64,000 nt of DNA from Glaciimonas immobilis (GTDB taxonomy: Bacteria > Pseudomonadota > Gammaproteobacteria > Burkholderiales > Burkholderiaceae_D), in NCBI RefSeq assembly GCF_011947285.1, contig NZ_JAAOZT010000010.1:26201-90200 (forward strand), in the 5' to 3' direction. Made by a program: the position numbers and the translations under genes. This document shows positions 41,077-51,442 of this stretch, in pieces. The stretch's first letter is position 1. Each line of letters starts with the position of its first letter. Below the pieces are notes generated by a model. It had not been told where the DNA came from, made no database searches, and was given only the letters and a program-made list of their open reading frames with translations.

Positions 41077-41242
41077 CTGCGCAGGGTTTAGTCGCTACTT
41101 TTTTACATTCTGATTATTTAGATTCGAATTAACCTGCCGGGCAATGGTGCCGGGCGGGCGTTGCGCCAACATTGTCTTTAAGGCTTGCTTTATTGCTTGC
41201 CGGCTTACAAAGCTCCAATGCTCTACTACTGAAAGAAAAAAA

Positions 41243-41638
41243 ATGAACATCCAAAAATTGCTTATTTCTGCAGCCTTTGTTGCTACTACTGCCGCTGTTG
41301 CGGGTTCTGCCTTTGCTGAAGCCACTTATCCGGTCGAAACTCCAACGGTTTCCACCAAAACCCGTGCGGAGGTGATCGCCCAACTGACCCAGGCTGGCGA
41401 CGAGGGAAGGTTGAACTATGCGCGAAATCTGTATCCGGTCACGCCCGTCGTTGCCTCCACCAAAACGCGTGCCGAGGTGATTGCGGAACTGACCCAAGCC
41501 CAGGATGAAGGACGTATGAACTACGCCCGCAATCTGTATCCTGCAACGCCAGTATCGGCGTCGACTAAGACGCGCGCTCAAGTGCGGGCTGAGGTAGCAT
41601 TGGCGGACACCGATCAATACTTAACCGGAAGTAATTAA
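41243..41638 (+). CDS. DUF4148 exported protein with three 35-residue repeats
   Basis: 131 residues from ATG 41243. A signal peptide (1-25, ending GSAFAEA) is followed by two full and one partial 35-residue unit (STKTRAEVIAQLTQAGDEGR..., LNYARNLYP...), a 105-bp period in the DNA (starting about 41351, 41456, 41561). The core TRAEV.AEL.QA.DEGR is the DUF4148 signature, common in Burkholderiales periplasmic proteins of unknown role. Strong similarity of the first two units suggests recent duplication. A good terminator follows. Confidence 0.85.
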   Translation: MNIQKLLISAAFVATTAAVAGSAFAEATYPVETPTVSTKTRAEVIAQLTQAGDEGRLNYARNLYPVTPVVASTKTRAEVIAELTQAQDEGRMNYARNLYPATPVSASTKTRAQVRAEVALADTDQYLTGSN

Positions 41639-43428: not shown

Positions 43429-44220
43429 TCAGTATCCAGCAACACTTGGCTTAGAAAATGTCGCTATTATTCTCGATACATTTCCTGCATGGTGCCACAT
43501 TGCCCTCGCCTCATTCATCAAGAAGCCATAAATTTCGCGCCCTAACTCGGCAGTTACCCGTGCGCGGTTATCGTGGATAGCCGCATAAACTTTTAGTTGC
43601 ATAAATATTCCAGGATCGGCTTCATAAAGGTGCTCAATTTCTAATCCATTTTTCAGCAATGCAAGGTAAAGTGGATCAAGCGCAGGAAAGCGTAAAGCTT
43701 TTCTGTCGGTCCAGTGCGTAAATATTAGCCTACCGTCTGGTTGAAGAACACGCGCTATTTCGGCGGCGGTTGCGGTGAAGGGTCTACTATGATGAATCGC
43801 ATCAATTGATAAAATTGCGTCGATACTGTTTGAGGAAAAAGGTAACTCTGTCATATCAGCAACGGCAAAGAAAATTCGCTCAGATCCGCTCGTTGGTATT
43901 TGCGTTGCATACGCGACCGCACAGGGTGATATGTCGATACCTATCGCTAATCCGAGGCGATCTTTGGATAGGTAATGTAGAAGGCCTCCGGTTCCGCATC
44001 CCAACTCTAGAATAGTCGAACGCAGGCGAAGACTTGATAGAGATTCTTTGAGCTTATGAACGTCGCTCCTCCGAATGAACGAAAAATTCTCCAGATCAGG
44101 AAAGTAGTCCTCCACGAAAACATCTTGAAGTATTTCTTGAAATACTTTTGATCCCTTAAGTCCTGTATAGATCGTGTCATAAAAGACTGCTAATTCCGTA
44201 AAATTATTTTGTATGGACAT
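43429..44220 (-). CDS. SAM-dependent class I methyltransferase of the peptide cluster
   Basis: 263 residues. SAM-binding motif I is ILELGCGTGGLLHYL (approx. 71-85), followed by IGIDISPCAVAYA, VADMTELPF and a conserved SIDAIHHS loop. It is the last gene of the minus-strand operon, 17 bp after the transporter. In RiPP pathways such enzymes methylate side chains or termini of the peptide; this role is inferred. Codons are A+T-rich relative to gor next door. Confidence 0.85.
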   Translation of the reverse strand: MSIQNNFTELAVFYDTIYTGLKGSKVFQEILQDVFVEDYFPDLENFSFIRRSDVHKLKESLSSLRLRSTILELGCGTGGLLHYLSKDRLGLAIGIDISPCAVAYATQIPTSGSERIFFAVADMTELPFSSNSIDAILSIDAIHHSRPFTATAAEIARVLQPDGRLIFTHWTDRKALRFPALDPLYLALLKNGLEIEHLYEADPGIFMQLKVYAAIHDNRARVTAELGREIYGFLMNEARAMWHHAGNVSRIIATFSKPSVAGY

Positions 44221-44237
44221 CTTGTCGTTGCTTGGTT

Positions 44238-45563
44238 TTACCGAAAAGCGGAAGGATAAAAACGACCATATGCGCCATCTAGTTCATCTTCTGACATTCT
44301 CATAAATACCCGTATATTGGGGACGAGGGCGACCCCTAGCATTAATGTTAAGGTAATAACGCCGGTTAGTAGGGACGTTATTTCTACGCCATAGTGCGCG
44401 ATTGCAAGTCCTACTATCAGACTCCCGATGGGGCTTGCTAACGATGAAAAAAACGACACGGTAGCGACCATTCGATTTCGAAAACAGGCAGGTGTCGCAA
44501 GCGTACGAACAATCGCTGTATTGACATTAATCAAAATTAATCCGCAACCTCCTAATGCAAAGAAGATTGGCAAAATAAAATAAGGTACGGCTAATCCAAT
44601 TGCCAATAAATTAAGGCCGAGGAGTCCAAATCCAGTCATCAACAAACGATCCCGAAATCTGATGAAAGATAATAATCGCGGTAAGAATTTGCTGGAAAGA
44701 AGCAGACCGACGCCAAAAGAGCAATCCAACAAGCCGATATACCAAGCTGGCAATTGGATTGTTTCCTGGACGTAAAAAGGAACGATGATTGTAAAAAATG
44801 GAAAAAGAACTAGATTGATCATCATCGCTAGTAACGCCAGATAAAATTCTATTTTTACCCGAAAAACGACTTTAAACCCTGACGATATCAGCGTGTGCCA
44901 AGGTGGCGTGATCGTAGTCAGCGGTTTCTCAATGGATTGAGTCGTTTGCGTTTGTATCGTCGATGAAGCGCCGACTATATTTAAATTCACGATCATCGAT
45001 ATAGCGATAGCAATTAAAGCAAAATCGATAATCAACGCTATGGTGACCCCCCATGTGGAGACAAGAAGCCCTGCTATTGCAGGCCCGAGTAACATGGCGA
45101 TAGAAGAAAGCACAGCTTTACGATTGAATGCTATAGCTATGCTGCGTAGAAGCGTTAATTGAGGAATGATACTGGATTGAATGGGGTCTCTAATTCCAAC
45201 TGCTATGCCAAGCAACATCATCGCGAAAGTTACTAAAGTAATAGAAAAATAATCTATGAATGAAAGCGCCAACAAGCAAGCCGCGCTAAACATCGTTAAG
45301 ACGTTACAGAAAAGTACGATCTTCATTTTTGAATAACGGTCCCCGGTCCAACCAAGTAGGGGTTTAGACAGTACTTCCGCACCAATTGTGCAGGCAATTA
45401 TTATCGAAAACAAACTTGCAGAACCGGTTTCTTTTAATGCCCACCACGCCACTGCTAATTGGTTGCAACGTGCGCCGACAGTCAGCAGAAAGATGCTCCA
45501 TTGAAATCTTAACAATCGCCAATTGTCGCTCTCGTAACTGGTTACCCAGTTCCAGATATTCAT
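44238..45563 (-). CDS. MFS transporter, probable exporter of the peptide product
   Basis: About 441 residues from ATG 45563; a TTG at 45620, overlapping the E1 gene and preceded by GGAG, is the alternative start. Twelve hydrophobic segments. The loop GWTGDRYSKMKIVLFCN (approx. 75-90) is the MFS motif A, and GVRDPIQSSIIPQL-like residues follow (AVGIRDPIQSSIIPQL). The closest visible pattern is the enterobactin-exporter-like (MFS_3) group. Position inside the operon suggests export of, and self-protection against, the modified peptide (inference). Confidence 0.85.
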   Translation of the reverse strand: MNIWNWVTSYESDNWRLLRFQWSIFLLTVGARCNQLAVAWWALKETGSASLFSIIIACTIGAEVLSKPLLGWTGDRYSKMKIVLFCNVLTMFSAACLLALSFIDYFSITLVTFAMMLLGIAVGIRDPIQSSIIPQLTLLRSIAIAFNRKAVLSSIAMLLGPAIAGLLVSTWGVTIALIIDFALIAIAISMIVNLNIVGASSTIQTQTTQSIEKPLTTITPPWHTLISSGFKVVFRVKIEFYLALLAMMINLVLFPFFTIIVPFYVQETIQLPAWYIGLLDCSFGVGLLLSSKFLPRLLSFIRFRDRLLMTGFGLLGLNLLAIGLAVPYFILPIFFALGGCGLILINVNTAIVRTLATPACFRNRMVATVSFFSSLASPIGSLIVGLAIAHYGVEITSLLTGVITLTLMLGVALVPNIRVFMRMSEDELDGAYGRFYPSAFR

Positions 45564-45609
45564 TTTTTTGTTTAACGCGAGTATCAACCACTTTAGATGG
45601 GCAGTGAAT

Positions 45610-46779
45610 TTATGTCGCAATCAACACTCCATGTTGATCAAAGCGGCGGAAAATCTGCGTGGCTTCTGTATTTTGTCTCATCAATTCCATTACCCCTCCT
45701 TTAAGACTGTATGAGTTTTTTCCGAGACCCATGCTTTCTAACATAGCGCAGGCTTGAGTACTCCGATTTCCAGATGCACAGTAAAAAACGAGCGGTACTT
45801 CAGAGCGAATACTTACTGACATTCCTTTAACGTTAATTAACGGCACATGTAAACCTCCATATGAAATTACTTGCCTCTCTTCATCTGAACGGACGTCTAT
45901 CAACTGAAATTGTTTTTTTAATTTCAGCCAACTCAAAAACGTGGTGACTTCAAGTTGCTGTACGCTAGTATTAATAAAGTTACTTTTTTCTTCGGTGACG
46001 TCATGCAAAGTAAAACCTGGGCGACGTAAAGGATTTAAGTAATCCAACTTCACATTGAATAATCTTGTTTCTAGCGTGATGGAATCCATACAAAGTAGTT
46101 TTCCGGATAGTCCGGACGGGATATCGCAAATTAATTTTATTGTTTCGTTGGCCTGCATACATCCAAATAGACCCGGCAATACACCAATGACTCCGGCCTC
46201 GGCACAGTTTGGGCTCAGAACATGAGGTGGTTTTGACGGAAAAAGGTCGCGATAATTGAATGACGTTTCAAAGCGGCTGTCAAAAACAGCAAGCTGTCCG
46301 TCGAATTGATTGATCGATGCATAAATTAAAGGTTTTAACAAAACATGGCAGAGATCATTAATGAGATATTTGGCTTCGAAGTTATCGGTGCTATCTATGA
46401 CGATATCAAATTTTGAAATAATTTCAACCGCATTTTCTTGGGTTAGTCTGACGGGAAATTTTTCAATATTTAGTTGCGGTGCTAGTAGAAGCAGTTTGTC
46501 GGCCGCCGCGTGTATTTTTTTTCGACCGACGTCCAAGTTTCCAAATAAAATCTGACGGTGAAGATTGCTTTCTTCTATCACGTCATTTTCTACTAAACCG
46601 ATAGTGCCAATGCCAGCAGCAGCAAGGTACAGCGCTGCAGGACATCCCAAGCCACCTACTCCAATAATCAGAATTCTAGCATTCTTAATTTTCTGTTGTC
46701 CTGACAAACCAATTTCGTTAAGTGATATGTGTCTCGCATACCGTTTCAGTTCATCATTGGTTAGTTTATTAGAAACCAT
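45610..46779 (-). CDS. E1-like adenylyltransferase fused to rhodanese (MoeB/ThiF-MoeZ type)
   Basis: 389 residues. The E1 domain (1-250) has GVGGLGCPA (40-48), NLHRQ (72-76), DSTDNFEAK (129-137) and the catalytic-region Cys in PNCAEAGVIG (C192). A rhodanese domain (approx. 285-389) has the active loop YCASGNRS with C334. Such enzymes adenylate the C-terminal Gly of ThiS/MoaD proteins and load sulfur onto it. The carrier gene is 4 bp upstream. The two zinc CxxC motifs usual in MoeB/MoeZ are absent: the segments FNYRDLF and LNPLRRPGF lack both Cys pairs. Role: activating the sulfur carrier for the YcaO enzyme (inference). Confidence 0.88.
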   Translation of the reverse strand: MVSNKLTNDELKRYARHISLNEIGLSGQQKIKNARILIIGVGGLGCPAALYLAAAGIGTIGLVENDVIEESNLHRQILFGNLDVGRKKIHAAADKLLLLAPQLNIEKFPVRLTQENAVEIISKFDIVIDSTDNFEAKYLINDLCHVLLKPLIYASINQFDGQLAVFDSRFETSFNYRDLFPSKPPHVLSPNCAEAGVIGVLPGLFGCMQANETIKLICDIPSGLSGKLLCMDSITLETRLFNVKLDYLNPLRRPGFTLHDVTEEKSNFINTSVQQLEVTTFLSWLKLKKQFQLIDVRSDEERQVISYGGLHVPLINVKGMSVSIRSEVPLVFYCASGNRSTQACAMLESMGLGKNSYSLKGGVMELMRQNTEATQIFRRFDQHGVLIAT

Positions 46780-46783
46780 TTAG

Positions 46784-47056
46784 CTAGCCTCCTGCAACTG
46801 CATTAATGAGAAAGATAGGCGTATTGGAAGACAGGGTTTTGTTTGCATATTCGTCCTCGGTAACCAGACTATCTTGGACCACGATCCGTGTGAAAGGATA
46901 TGGTTTTCCGTTTGAGGAAAAAACAGTACCAATCAAGGAGGGGTATCTACTAATTAATTCAATAAAAAGGGTGTCTAAGGTAGTTGCGTTACTGTTGTAT
47001 AACTTTGCCTCACCTGTATGCTGACGGTAAGCCCTGGGAATATGAATAATAGGAAT
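46784..47056 (-). CDS. MoaD/ThiS/CysO-like sulfur-carrier protein with C-terminal Gly-Gly, ATT start
   Basis: About 90 residues if translation begins at ATT 47056, which lies six bases after AAGGAG; no ATG, GTG or TTG exists at a suitable place. Residues IPIIHIPRAYRQHTGEAKLY form the beta1-beta2 start of a ubiquitin-like fold. The end INAVAGG is the diglycine tail of sulfur carriers, resembling the IPxxLRxxTG...PAVAGG pattern of MoaD/CysO. The next gene's AGGAGG ribosome site is formed by the Gly-Gly codons themselves. An open frame extends upstream to 47293 but overlaps the HExxH gene and is unlikely to be used. It would carry thiocarboxylate sulfur for the pathway. Confidence 0.8.
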   Translation of the reverse strand: MPIIHIPRAYRQHTGEAKLYNSNATTLDTLFIELISRYPSLIGTVFSSNGKPYPFTRIVVQDSLVTEDEYANKTLSSNTPIFLINAVAGG

Positions 47057-47066
47057 GTTTATCTCC

Positions 47067-47825
47067 TTAATTTTTTGAGCGTTGTTCTTGAAGGAATAAG
47101 GCCAGATGGTTGTTGATTTGAAGACCAAGATAGGAGGCGTCTGTCGACTTATGGACCACGTCGATACATCCTGAAAGATAGTTTTCAAGAAAGGCGATAC
47201 GGTCTTCACATTTCGGAAAAATTTTGCCCTCCACATAATAAAATTTGATAGCTGCTGCGGCGAATAGGCCTGCAAATAATACGCCACGTACACTCTTATT
47301 TTTCGTGCCTGATGGAAGAGTTAATTTAGCCAATGAGTTTTTTTTCTGGAAATCAATGATTTCCGCTATGAAGCCACACCAGACATGAGACATTTCATGA
47401 ACAATGGTTTCTTCAAGAAGGAGCTCATCGGCGAATGCTGATTCACCTAAAAATATAAATTGAGGAAAAACAGGATTAGTTAAACTTATTTGTCCGGTGG
47501 TTAACTTTCGCCATTCAATCGAAATAGTCAAAAGCGCGTTCCATTCGGGATGCTTCTCTAGGATTCGCCGGATGGCTTTATTCACAAGTTCGATTCGGCT
47601 GTCATTAAGGAAAGCAGACTCAGGACGAGTGGGCATTTTTTTCATCAGCCTCTGGTAGATCCTAAGGGCATTATCTGGAACAAGATAGTCGTTGAGGAAT
47701 GGGAGGTATCGCTGATCGGCTTCCGAGCGGAGCGAAGCGACTAATGTAAGTAGCACTTGTGGCTTGAACGTTGCGTCAATAAACGGTAGGCCGTTTAGTA
47801 GTGTTAGTAGATTATCTGGAGTCAT
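47067..47825 (-). CDS. HExxH-motif protein of RiPP clusters (putative peptide-modification or protease component)
   Basis: 252 residues from ATG 47825, which overlaps the TfuA stop as ATGA; ATG 47846 is an alternative. It has a single recognisable motif, HEMSHVWCGF (HExxH at residues 143-147), preceded by LLLEETIV. This matches the uncharacterised HEXXH-motif family found beside peptide-maturation genes. The zinc-binding motif suggests metallopeptidase-like chemistry, perhaps leader removal, but no activity is established. It is A+T-rich like its neighbours. Its stop is 10 bp before the sulfur-carrier start. Confidence 0.75.
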   Translation of the reverse strand: MTPDNLLTLLNGLPFIDATFKPQVLLTLVASLRSEADQRYLPFLNDYLVPDNALRIYQRLMKKMPTRPESAFLNDSRIELVNKAIRRILEKHPEWNALLTISIEWRKLTTGQISLTNPVFPQFIFLGESAFADELLLEETIVHEMSHVWCGFIAEIIDFQKKNSLAKLTLPSGTKNKSVRGVLFAGLFAAAAIKFYYVEGKIFPKCEDRIAFLENYLSGCIDVVHKSTDASYLGLQINNHLALFLQEQRSKN

Positions 47826-48496
47826 GATGAGGCGATCGATAACCATGGCTTTAACGATAAAAAATCTATCAAATCATGTGTTTTTATTTCAAAGCGCGAG
47901 AACATATGATTGATGTCTGCTATTTGCTCTTCTTTTACGCCAGCCTCCGCAAGATATTCACGTAAGTTTGTCATGGTCCTTTCCCCAAACCACATTTTTT
48001 TAAGTCGCATTATGATTTCTTCTCCAGACTTCGGCGAAAGAATTTTCAGATGAATTAGATCATGAATTAAAAGTCGTATATGTATCAATGGTTGGCTAAG
48101 CGATATGTAGGGAAATTCTTCCTGATGCAGTAAAGTTACTTCATCGTCGGACAGATCATGATCGCGATAAGATATAAATACTTGGCCGAACCCTCGCATA
48201 CCATATGTGTGCATTTCCGCTGCGCGGATTGCCCCCATGGACGACAATCCCCATATCGACCAGCCTCTCTTTAAGGCAAGCATAATTTCGGCGTGACCAA
48301 CTGCCGGATATGAATGAAATGTGCCGTCGACTAGGGCAATTTTACCTGGCGGTTCATCTCTAACAAGGCGTGCAACATCGCCGCGGCGTGCCGGTGCGTG
48401 AACTATCAGTTGATCGTCCCATCCTTCCTTAAGAGTGATGCCAACTAAAGTTGGTCCGACAAATATATGCAGAAGTTTATTTTGTATCGGAAACAT
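47822..48496 (-). CDS. tfuA: TfuA-family protein
   Basis: 224 residues. The conserved TfuA core is seen as IALVDGTFHSYPAVGHAEI, LALKRGWSIWGLSSMGA and IRAAEMHTYGMRGFG (approx. 52-102). TfuA proteins are partners of YcaO enzymes and are associated with peptide thioamidation in methanogens and RiPP pathways; the original member came from trifolitoxin production. The gene overlaps ycaO by 20 bp and the HExxH gene by 4 bp, so the three are probably translated in concert. Its role is likely delivery or activation of sulfur for the YcaO enzyme. Confidence 0.92.
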   Translation of the reverse strand: MFPIQNKLLHIFVGPTLVGITLKEGWDDQLIVHAPARRGDVARLVRDEPPGKIALVDGTFHSYPAVGHAEIMLALKRGWSIWGLSSMGAIRAAEMHTYGMRGFGQVFISYRDHDLSDDEVTLLHQEEFPYISLSQPLIHIRLLIHDLIHLKILSPKSGEEIIMRLKKMWFGERTMTNLREYLAEAGVKEEQIADINHMFSRFEIKTHDLIDFLSLKPWLSIASS

Positions 48497-49691
48497 ATTT
48501 TCCTAGGCGGGGCCCTATTCTTTTTAGTGACGGATCAAATGATTCGAGGGACGGAACTACGACTCGTACCACTTGAATCGGAGAATTGTTCGGAGTCAGC
48601 GGGAGAAAGCAGATTGATTTCAAACCGTAGGCTTGTAGCCGCCTAATGATTAACCCTAACGCATCGGCTATTGACCGTATGTCTTTGCTAGAATCGTTAA
48701 TCGTGGAATAGCTAATTCTTTTGGTTGGTGACTGTGCATCATTTCGTAGCTGGTAAATAGCTTGCAATTCAATGGGGCGGCCCAACCTCTCAAAATATTT
48801 TGCGCGCTCAATTAAATCGTCTCTTCCTCCATGAATGTGACTTAAACGGCTTTGTGCGGCTTCGCAGATCGCTCGGACGAGGGCCACCTCTTTGATCAAG
48901 TGTAGCCCTGATCCGATGGCGATACTTATAGGAGACTCGGGGTGCGCTTCCATGAGAAAGGCTTGGAAGTAAGCGAAGCCAAATGAAGACTCCGTATGTC
49001 TGATACTTATAATGAGTCCGGCATTTTTTATCTTTCTTATCAGAGATGTGACTTCCGGGGAAAGACAATCCAAATCTACTAAAGCGGAGCGGTCATAAAT
49101 AAAATTAAATGCTTGAACGTCCCGTTCCATGAGCTCACAAAGTCCGTGAACAATCGCCTCATCTGTTGTGTTCCCAGAGCAAAGTCCATTTGAACTTTGT
49201 CCAAAAACTTTGCGATTTAGCTCACTATGGAAAGGTATGAAAATTAATTCTGCTGGCAGTAAAACCTCATTGGTGTCCAACAGATCGCGAGCGCAAACAG
49301 CCATCATAAGTTCTTCCGCTAAAATGGTCCTATCCATCAGGGGACAAAGGTCGACGAAGTCGATACGTCCGTTATAGGATGCTAAAATTTCGGCGGGGGA
49401 TGACCTAATAATAGGAATTTTTGAATCATTGAATTCTGCGTAAGCGAACTCTATTGACTCCATATAAGCACCGATTTTAGCCTCGATATCGTGAAGGCCT
49501 TTTCCTGCGTTTACGCATAGAGATCCGGTCGCAGCAGCGGGGCGTATGCTTGCATAAACGGGTATGCCAATTCTATCCAGCCAAGTGGTATCCGTGACTC
49601 GGGTTATACCTAGACGCGGGGCAATTTCCATTGCGTATTTTAAAGTTTCCGCTGCCGAGCGAGTACGTAAGCTGGAACTGAGTCTGTGCAT
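48477..49691 (-). CDS. ycaO: YcaO-family enzyme (probable thioamide-forming)
   Basis: 404 residues. ATP-site features of YcaO are visible: GKGLHDIEAKIGAYMESIEFAY-like segment (approx. 63-85, Glu ligands) and SSNGLCSGNTTDEAIVHGLCELMERD-like segment (167-191). YcaO enzymes activate the peptide backbone amide with ATP to form azolines, amidines or thioamides. The C-terminus ends GPRLGKYVSDTK and lacks the PxPxP tail of azoline-forming members. With TfuA next to it and sulfur-transfer genes in the operon, thioamide formation is the best guess. It is directly downstream of the precursor peptide gene. Confidence 0.92.
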   Translation of the reverse strand: MHRLSSSLRTRSAAETLKYAMEIAPRLGITRVTDTTWLDRIGIPVYASIRPAAATGSLCVNAGKGLHDIEAKIGAYMESIEFAYAEFNDSKIPIIRSSPAEILASYNGRIDFVDLCPLMDRTILAEELMMAVCARDLLDTNEVLLPAELIFIPFHSELNRKVFGQSSNGLCSGNTTDEAIVHGLCELMERDVQAFNFIYDRSALVDLDCLSPEVTSLIRKIKNAGLIISIRHTESSFGFAYFQAFLMEAHPESPISIAIGSGLHLIKEVALVRAICEAAQSRLSHIHGGRDDLIERAKYFERLGRPIELQAIYQLRNDAQSPTKRISYSTINDSSKDIRSIADALGLIIRRLQAYGLKSICFLPLTPNNSPIQVVRVVVPSLESFDPSLKRIGPRLGKYVSDTK

Positions 49692-49707
49692 ATTGGATCC
49701 AAGAATT

Positions 49708-49737
49708 GATAGCGGAAGTAAACATAATTCCGCTATC
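49708..49737 (-). terminator. Hairpin between the precursor gene and ycaO
   Basis: GATAGCGGAA (49708-49717) and TTCCGCTATC (49728-49737) form a perfect 10-bp stem with a 10-base loop, seven bases after the precursor stop. No strong T-run follows. This position suits a partial terminator or RNA-stabilising hairpin that raises precursor output relative to the enzymes. Confidence 0.7.
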
Positions 49738-49743
49738 TATTAA

Positions 49744-49902
49744 TTAAAAATCTAAATTTTCTTCCGTTCCGTTGTTGATATTGTTGGCTTGATGACCAAC
49801 GTTACCGGCATTCATCAAACTTTCCTCGCTTAAAATCTCACTAAATTTTTTGGCTAGTACTTCGTCAATTTCCAGATTAAAAGTATTGTGATTAGTAGGC
49901 AT
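49744..49902 (-). CDS. Candidate RiPP precursor peptide
   Basis: 52 codons from ATG 49902 (preceded by AAAGAGAA) to TAA 49744. An amphipathic, acidic leader-like N-terminal half (FNLEIDEVLAKKFSEILSEE, residues 8-27) is followed by an Asn/Gly-rich C-terminal part (NAGNVGHQANNINNG, 31-45) ending ENLDF. There is no Cys at all and no Ser after residue 28; Thr46 is the only hydroxyl residue in the presumed core. It stands first in the operon directly before ycaO, the usual place for a precursor. No family match is known to me; function is inferred from position and architecture. Confidence 0.8.
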   Translation of the reverse strand: MPTNHNTFNLEIDEVLAKKFSEILSEESLMNAGNVGHQANNINNGTEENLDF

Positions 49903-50011
49903 TTTTTCTCTTTCTTTGTCATTGAATTTACCTGCATAACGCCCTAGATCCGGGCTCTACTTATTGCGACTCCGGGCAACGCGCCTAGAGGTACGTGCTT
50001 TTAACGACGGG

Positions 50012-50030
50012 TATTAATTAAAAATCTAAA
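50012..50030. repeat. 19-bp direct repeat of the precursor gene's 3' end
   Basis: TATTAATTAAAAATCTAAA at 50012-50030 is identical to 49738-49756, which covers the last codons and stop of the precursor gene. It could be a remnant of a duplicated precursor gene or a recombination scar. The upstream frame at this second copy is not leader-like. Confidence 0.55.
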
Positions 50031-50237
50031 ATATTTATTGGTATATGTTGCGGACGTGAAGTGATCCGAATCCGAGATATCCAAACGAAAAAGTTAGCTC
50101 TTTGTTTAATGGCCCAAGGTCAGTTCCATATTATTAAATCTGGTTGAAATTTGTAATCCGTATTCTTTACGGAGTAATTTTAAAAAGAATTTCAGTGAAC
50201 GCTACAGGTGCGTGATTTTTGGCTAATTATGGAGTGC

Positions 50238-50278
50238 CCGCCAATGAGGTGCGAATAGAGAGCGCTTCACACTGGCGG
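50238..50278. promoter_or_regulatory. Structured element in the cluster's divergent regulatory region
   Basis: CCGCCA (50238-50243) and TGGCGG (50273-50278) are perfect outer arms. GAGGTGC and GCGCTTC inside can extend the stem with two G-U pairs. It lies in the 760-bp gene-free region (49903-50662) between the precursor and the PAS-LuxR gene; otherwise I see only A+T-rich promoter-like sequence there. Confidence 0.35.
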
Positions 50279-50662
50279 ATGAATGTAGGTCGTAAATCGA
50301 AGGTATTTGACGATCTTGAAGTGAAAATTTTTGTCTGGTGATGGAAGCGATTGTTTAAGGATTACGGAATGAATTTGTATCAAGCGTAAGTAAAAGGAGC
50401 TACTTACTCGATGTTTGGCAGTTTTTAAGGACTATTTTCATACTCTCGGCGTATAGTGGATTATCGAATTTGTTTATTTGTCAATATATTTTCGATCCGT
50501 GCATATTTTGTTTGTGATTTAGTAACCAATGTGTTTTCGGGAGTAATCGATTCTGGAAGTAGATTTGAGCATTGGATGTGTCCAAAGCTTGCAAAAAACT
50601 CCCGACTCTTAAATTTGGCCATCGAATGATGTTTGTAAAATCACCAGTGAAAGTATTTTGAT

Positions 50663-51442
50663 ATGGCGCGTCAAGTTGATCCAAAGCTTTTGGAAATCTT
50701 CGATAAAATGCCAGGCTGTTGGGGTTGCAAGGACCAAAATTCAAAATTTTTATATGTCAACGAAGCCTACGCACGTTTAATCGGCTTGAATAATAATATA
50801 GACATCGTGGGTTGCAGTGATTTTGATCTACCTTGCGGAGCCTCTCGCTGTGCAGGTTTATTTCAAAGGCAAGATCAGGAAGTAATTAGTTCGGCAAAAT
50901 CGTTGAGAGTCTTGGACATTCATCCCCGTTCTGAAGGGGAGTGGAGTGCGTACATTTTTACAAAAATGCCCATGCGAGATGAAGAAGGTCGCATTTGCGG
51001 AATAATCTTCCATGGGGAAAATATTACTTCGGTTCGAAATTTAGAATTAGAGGCGTTTCTGACGTCTGTTCGCGGCAATCAAAGAGGGTGCGATTTGCTT
51101 AAACAGGAAAGCTATTTTATCAAGCAAGAAAGAGGGTCTATAAAACTTACGTGCAGGGAATCGGAGGTGCTATTTTTTCTTATGCGTGGAAATACAGCAA
51201 AGATGACTTCGTCGATTTTGAATATTTCAAGGCGCACCGTAGAACAATACGTTACTTATCTTAAGGCGAAATTTGCAGTTGTTAGCAAATACGAATTGCT
51301 GGATCGTGCAATTGAGCTGGGATACCTTAGTTACATTCCGCAGTCTTTATTTTCTCAACAGCTTTCCGTCATTCTGAGGGATACCACGGAGTCAATATTC
51401 CCCTTGATGATTGGTGATTACGGGCCTGATCAAGTGCCGTAG
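50663..51442 (+). CDS. PAS-LuxR transcriptional regulator, probable pathway regulator
   Basis: 259 residues. An N-terminal PAS fold (approx. 5-125; MPGCWGCKDQNSKFLYVNEA, with several Cys: GCWGC, LPCGASRC) precedes a LuxR-type helix-turn-helix (approx. 160-220; LTCRESEVLFFLMRGNTAKM, ILNISRRTVEQYVTYLKAKF). The Cys cluster could sense redox or metal (inference). It is divergent from the precursor gene across a 760-bp gap and shares the A+T-rich composition of the cluster, so it most likely controls it. Confidence 0.85.
   Translation: MARQVDPKLLEIFDKMPGCWGCKDQNSKFLYVNEAYARLIGLNNNIDIVGCSDFDLPCGASRCAGLFQRQDQEVISSAKSLRVLDIHPRSEGEWSAYIFTKMPMRDEEGRICGIIFHGENITSVRNLELEAFLTSVRGNQRGCDLLKQESYFIKQERGSIKLTCRESEVLFFLMRGNTAKMTSSILNISRRTVEQYVTYLKAKFAVVSKYELLDRAIELGYLSYIPQSLFSQQLSVILRDTTESIFPLMIGDYGPDQVP

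Follow-up and report, generated by a model that had tools for sequence, protein, structure and literature searches.

A YcaO–TfuA gene cluster of Glaciimonas immobilis with a sulfur carrier and a likely HExxH oxygenase, predicted to make a thioamidated peptide

The DNA analysed here (the window) is a stretch of 64,000 nucleotides of Glaciimonas immobilis contig NZ_JAAOZT010000010.1, positions 26,201 to 90,200. At 43429..51442 it harbors a gene cluster predicted to produce a thioamidated member of the ribosomally synthesized and post-translationally modified peptides (RiPPs). The minus-strand genes nearly touch or overlap by their open reading frame coordinates, an arrangement as in one operon.

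Genes of the locus and their conservation

The cluster comprises the following features, listed in the direction of the operon and ending with the divergent regulator.

49744..49902, minus: precursor peptide gene, 52 amino acids (aa), leader then core, AGNVGHQANNINNGTEENLDF
49780..49794, minus: core motif H-x-[S/A]-N-N, here HQANN, residues 37-41
49708..49737, minus: hairpin in the precursor–ycaO gap, with 10 outer pairs, z -3.6
48477..49691, minus: YcaO, 404 aa (PF02624, 189.4 bits, cut-off 25.7)
47822..48496, minus: TfuA, 224 aa (PF07812, 115.5 bits, cut-off 30)
47067..47825, minus: HExxH protein, 252 aa, ATG 47825; fold match to alpha-ketoglutarate/iron oxygenases
46784..47056, minus: sulfur carrier, 90 aa, C-terminal AVAGG, ATT start (PF02597, 24.4 bits, cut-off 22.5)
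45610..46779, minus: E1-like adenylyltransferase–rhodanese fusion, 389 aa (PF00899, 240 bits; PF00581, 33 bits)
44238..45563, minus: MFS transporter, 441 aa, ATG 45563, predicted exporter (PF07690, 69 bits)
43429..44220, minus: S-adenosylmethionine-dependent methyltransferase, 263 aa (PF08241, 72 bits)
50663..51442, plus: divergent PAS-LuxR regulator (PAS_4 and GerE above Pfam cut-off)

A preliminary description of this DNA had proposed the same row of eight genes with a divergent regulator, and all nine frames are present and open. The per-protein profile searches that it suggested recovered YcaO, TfuA, ThiF with rhodanese, ThiS, MFS_1, Methyltransf_11 and PAS_4 with GerE above the Pfam cut-offs. 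The HExxH protein was the exception, with only a SprT-like match of 17.1 bits (cut-off 25.6), and no protease family scored above cut-off in Pfam among the nine proteins. Comparison with relatives indicates that the MFS protein probably starts at 45563 and the HExxH protein probably at 47825, a longer start at 47846 being possible. Near the beginning of the carrier gene there is no ATG, GTG or TTG; a start consistent with the relatives is the ATT at 47056, preceded by AAGGAG 6 nt before.

The tfuA gene adjoins ycaO with a 20-nt overlap. The nearest solved chain to YcaO is 6pe3 (MJ1094, E 2.4e-33), and TfuA matches the solved chain 6xp8 (E 1.2e-17). YcaO is predicted to activate the peptide backbone at the expense of ATP. 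The model of the carrier, with its beta-grasp fold and C-terminal Gly-Gly, matches CysO, SAMP1, MoaD and Urm1, and the E1 protein matches Uba4 (6yub, E 1e-46), ThiF and MoeB. All 20 full-length sequences compared, that of the window among them, retain the rhodanese loop C-x-[ST]-G-x-R-S. The assignment as a MoeB or MoeZ orthologue was rejected by the equivalog cut-offs (324.8 against 449 and 292.8 against 647 bits); from its MoeZ/Uba4-like architecture, the fusion is predicted to work like these enzymes. The host genome holds six ThiF and four ThiS matches, those of the window and of a second cluster among them, so that the carrier/E1 pair of the window is an extra one.

A scan with the HExxH family yielded 23 genome loci, and a plasmid search two more. 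These 25 relatives belong to Pseudomonas, enterobacteria (Kosakonia, Rouxiella, Yersinia similis, Symbiopectobacterium and Pantoea), Paraburkholderia, a metagenome-assembled Massilia genome, Streptomyces, Kribbella and Actinoallomurus. TfuA lies beside the HExxH gene in all 25, and their association therefore exceeds chance. YcaO is found in 23 of them; none was found in L024, and L027 is cut on its upstream side by the end of its contig. A carrier ending in GG is present in 20 relatives, the E1–rhodanese fusion in the same 20 and the MFS gene in 22. A carrier was counted when its GG end stood where expected; similarity to the carrier of the window also picked out 13 of the 20, every one of them ending in GG. 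The five large genes show protein distances that increase in concert (r 0.976-0.992, n 17-20), a trend that organism phylogeny likewise favours. A single open frame encodes both TfuA and the HExxH protein in L052 and in L025 (Streptomyces). L052 also encodes, behind its carrier, a further protein that is cupin/JmjC-like by eye.

A precursor profile found a member in 22 of the 25 relatives and none in L024, L025 and L027; it had been built to include 18 of those 22, picked by eye, leaving L011, L014, L016 and L019 outside it. The core H-x-[S/A]-N-N, an addition of the present analysis, occurs in 21 of the 22. Searching a database with a profile of 12 sequences returned 113 proteins, 103 of them with the strict motif, which is an upper estimate because the motif formed part of the search profile; the remaining ten carry variants such as HQSNS, HQTNN or YEANN. 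Cys is absent from 98 of the 113, and the C-terminal tails beyond the core are clade-specific and 4-34 residues long. The profile also recovered the motif in L047/L052, from a genome chosen on TfuA alone. Hairpins also stand at the equivalent place in each of the five other loci folded (z -2.5 to -5.2), drawn from the 22 that have a precursor. The hairpin of the window possibly acts as an attenuator or RNA stabiliser. The preliminary description had named chance neighbourhood, or a precursor not conserved beside ycaO, as grounds for abandoning its view. The neighbourhoods proved to be conserved across the 25 relatives and the precursor in 22, and its YcaO–TfuA RiPP logic is supported by both domains scoring above cut-off, by their adjacency and by the conserved short precursor.

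Sampling on TfuA alone gave a broader view. The order contributed five positive genomes out of 399 and the phylum 14 out of 398, the host being counted in both, which amounted to 25 loci, two of them from the host. YcaO adjoins TfuA at all 25. An E1 protein occurs at six and a GG carrier at six, found with a carrier profile that counted those of the window, L043, L052 and L054 among its members. The two stand together at five (window, L043, L054, L087 and L104), the full pair being absent at 20. The HExxH gene is present at three (window, L052 and L104), and the same three have a precursor of the H-x-[S/A]-N-N type.

The HExxH protein, the proposed pathway and its alternatives

The HExxH protein most resembles alpha-ketoglutarate/iron oxygenases in its structure model and is likely to be one, a role that the preliminary description had not given it. 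The model, made with the longer start, has a predicted local distance difference test score of 93.9, and its best structural matches by Foldseek and VIA are 8s5f and 22ob; its profile matches 8s5f with E 0.0035 at 13% identity. The predicted fold agrees with the HExxH domain of ChlB, and the motif sits on a helix. HExxH and its flanking residues are invariant across 22 aligned proteins, although the scan itself demanded the motif, so that its conservation is partly built in; the neighbouring genes were not demanded.

The model favoured here, with a probability of roughly 0.65, proposes that the cluster makes a small peptide thioamidated through a dedicated carrier and E1–rhodanese, TfuA and YcaO, and that its conserved core is also hydroxylated by the HExxH oxygenase. 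Judging from the protein families, the E1 domain would adenylate the C-terminal Gly of the carrier, and the Cys persulfide of the rhodanese would convert this end to a thiocarboxylate. TfuA would then hydrolyse the thiocarboxylate near YcaO, which would spend ATP on swapping oxygen for sulfur in the core backbone. The fold of the oxygenase suggests that it would most likely hydroxylate the beta position of the near-invariant His or of a motif Asn, and the MFS protein is the predicted exporter of the peptide. The weakest parts of this model are the residue that carries the thioamide, the target of the methyltransferase and the route of leader removal.

Several observations weigh against the hydroxylated thioamide peptide. 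L016 retains the leader and the HExxH gene without the core motif. Carrier and E1 are both absent in five of the 25 HExxH loci (L016, L024, L025, L027 and L028), so that the relay seems dispensable in some relatives, and the HExxH gene is missing at 22 of the 25 TfuA-sampled loci. The match to NCBIfam mod_HExxH (TIGR04267) reaches 22 bits, below the cut-off of 40, and the protein is therefore labelled a structural relative rather than a filed member. The later His residues of ChlH are without conserved counterpart in the profile alignment.

It could be argued that the HExxH protein is instead a metallopeptidase trimming the leader or the C-terminal tail of a peptide with thioamides only. The invariant motif with its flanks, the weak SprT-like match and an operon with no other protease recognised by Pfam would suit this role, and PflC, itself a HExxH oxygenase, shows proteolysis too when the leader is absent (PMC12636437; papers are cited here from extracts). 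This is unlikely, and an oxidative role in cleavage is no more probable: the oxygenase would cut the backbone beside the core, leaving a C-terminal amide and freeing the tail, instead of or besides side-chain hydroxylation. PflC/PosC provide the precedent (PMC12636437), and both the existence of clade-specific tails and the lack of a recognised protease fit it; by eye, however, the tails vary among clades and share no motif like ARMD.

Far less probable is that YcaO makes azolines or an amidine, the relay serving another sulfur step, such as forming a thioacid at the C terminus or a thioamide on a side chain. Carrier/E1 pairs elsewhere do serve thioacid metabolites. The chemical diversity of YcaO enzymes (PMC13063428) also speaks for it, but TfuA stands beside YcaO at every TfuA-sampled locus, most precursors lack Cys, and the best full-length NCBIfam match of YcaO is the McrA-glycine thioamidation model, albeit below cut-off (228.7 against 365 bits).

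The cluster might even define a new RiPP class, its H-x-[S/A]-N-N core bearing a thioamide beside a beta-hydroxylated residue, with a coupled TfuA–oxygenase and a private carrier: a second independent invention of the thioamide plus hydroxy-histidine pairing of the thioamitides; this is proposed tentatively, at somewhat under even odds. Such a class would span Pseudomonas, enterobacteria, Burkholderiales and Streptomyces, with TfuA and oxygenase fused in some species. The compact operon could show in one host whether a dedicated carrier supplies sulfur to a bacterial TfuA, which the thioamitide authors left open (PMC8153245), and would also reveal if HExxH oxygenases act on thioamide peptides.

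Clade-specific genes and origin of the operon

The gene behind the MFS gene varies by clade. It is spermine-synthase-like in 11 loci of Pseudomonas (Pfam applied to two), in contrast to Methyltransf_11 in the window, which recurs in L026 (111 bits) and as a contig-end piece in L017, in both located behind a JmjC_2 gene. Near the corresponding place, ten loci (L017, L019, L022, L026, L029, L030, L018, L020, L021 and L027; three tested) carry a JmjC_2/cupin_8 family gene, which in L027 comes after the HExxH gene. RoxA, which hydroxylates Arg81 beside the uL16 thioamide, belongs to JmjC_2. The PAS-LuxR regulator has no match within the 23 genome loci and is therefore possibly local. On the plasmid of Paraburkholderia megapolitana, a second MFS–YcaO–TfuA–carrier–E1 set (L030, 15086-20090) follows the first in tandem, and the HExxH profile matches the gene of the first set only. 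In L011, L012, L017, L019 and L023 genes are in pieces, most so in the Symbiopectobacterium locus L019, which suggests that certain lineages are losing the cluster or that the sequences contain errors.

The operon was likely acquired from another species. Its G+C content is 42.6%, against 52.4% on the left and 49.3% on the right, and among 60 genomes of the relatives' sample only the host itself has the HExxH gene. Four same-genus genomes were searched for the flanking glutathione-reductase-like gene: three have a close relative (88-90% identity), and the fourth offers no match better than 30%. In two of these three, about 0.14 and 0.25 kb separate the matching flanks, and the third carries an unrelated 2.4-kb stretch at the insertion point (L066, 10277-12641), which is possibly a hotspot.

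The host has a second TfuA–YcaO–carrier–ThiF cluster (L043, 4997-13303; contig C31:189000-205000). It also holds an NHLP-like precursor just under cut-off, a TauD oxygenase, a TP_methylase-family protein, which one might guess to be a borosin-type N-methyltransferase, and an aspartate-tRNA ligase. Another such ligase of the genome (C23) is 40% identical, so that the L043 copy could serve self-resistance and point to the target. Elsewhere in the window, 41144-41638 encodes a small protein with internal repeats (TKTRAEV...LNYARNLYPVTP).

Comparison with known systems

The preliminary description had called the pathway apparently undescribed and taken its sulfur relay as a distinguishing feature. 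Its RiPP logic, precursor and carrier/E1 pair within the same gene row have held, and these two claims have not. An appendix of a 2021 eLife paper (PMC8719888) prints an identical gene list, order included, as an uncharacterised 'YcaO cluster' of Pseudomonas strains: precursor, YcaO, TfuA, a protein of unknown domain, ubiquitin-like, E1/ThiF-like, MFS and methyltransferase. In the portion seen, the HExxH gene is unnamed and neither core motif nor function is stated. As for the relay, it also stands at other TfuA loci, and PMC5589413 and PMC13063428 mention such genes close to TfuA or carriers that work with it. Archaeal TfuA is held to hydrolyse the ThiS thiocarboxylate to feed YcaO (PMC13185837, PMC8153245), and YcaO enzymes of the TfuA type tend toward ThiS homologues as sulfur carriers (PMC13063428); the relay is therefore to be expected rather than new.

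Dedicated carriers with an E1–rhodanese, as in the window, are also found in the thioquinolobactin and pyridine-2,6-dithiocarboxylic acid pathways, where a JAMM protease is required to expose GG, whereas the carrier of the window is encoded with GG at its C terminus. The methanogen McrA-glycine system supplies the best NCBIfam models for both YcaO and TfuA, the latter at 138.2 bits (equivalog cut-off 235.2), and has sulfur genes sometimes nearby (PMC5589413), but its substrate is a large enzyme rather than a small peptide. Thioamitides such as thiostreptamide S4 and thioviridamide share YcaO and TfuA thioamides, and combine them with methyltransferases and with His beta-hydroxylation by an alpha-ketoglutarate enzyme (PMC8153245). 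Their hydroxylase TsaJ is PF05721 and their TsaG PF06325 (PMC8153245), neither of which matched among the nine proteins at E up to 1; unlike in thioamitides, AviMeCys genes were not recognised in the operon. According to extracts of a 2021 survey, all TfuA–YcaO thioamidated RiPPs then known came from Actinobacteria, and Proteobacteria hold over a thousand TfuA clusters (PMC8120280).

The alpha-ketoglutarate HExxH peptide oxygenases ChlB-HExxH, BpmH, PflC/PosC and PesO share the common fold and the HExxH helix; in the portions of the literature examined, none is described beside YcaO–TfuA, unlike here. The cluster type is already in print, with no characterisation found in the literature searched. 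It forms a real branch of clusters predicted to make thioamidated RiPPs, one that is widely distributed and, within the reach of those searches, uncharacterised. Others saw it first; the present work contributes the likely identity of the oxygenase, the core motif, the TfuA–HExxH fusions and the range of organisms.
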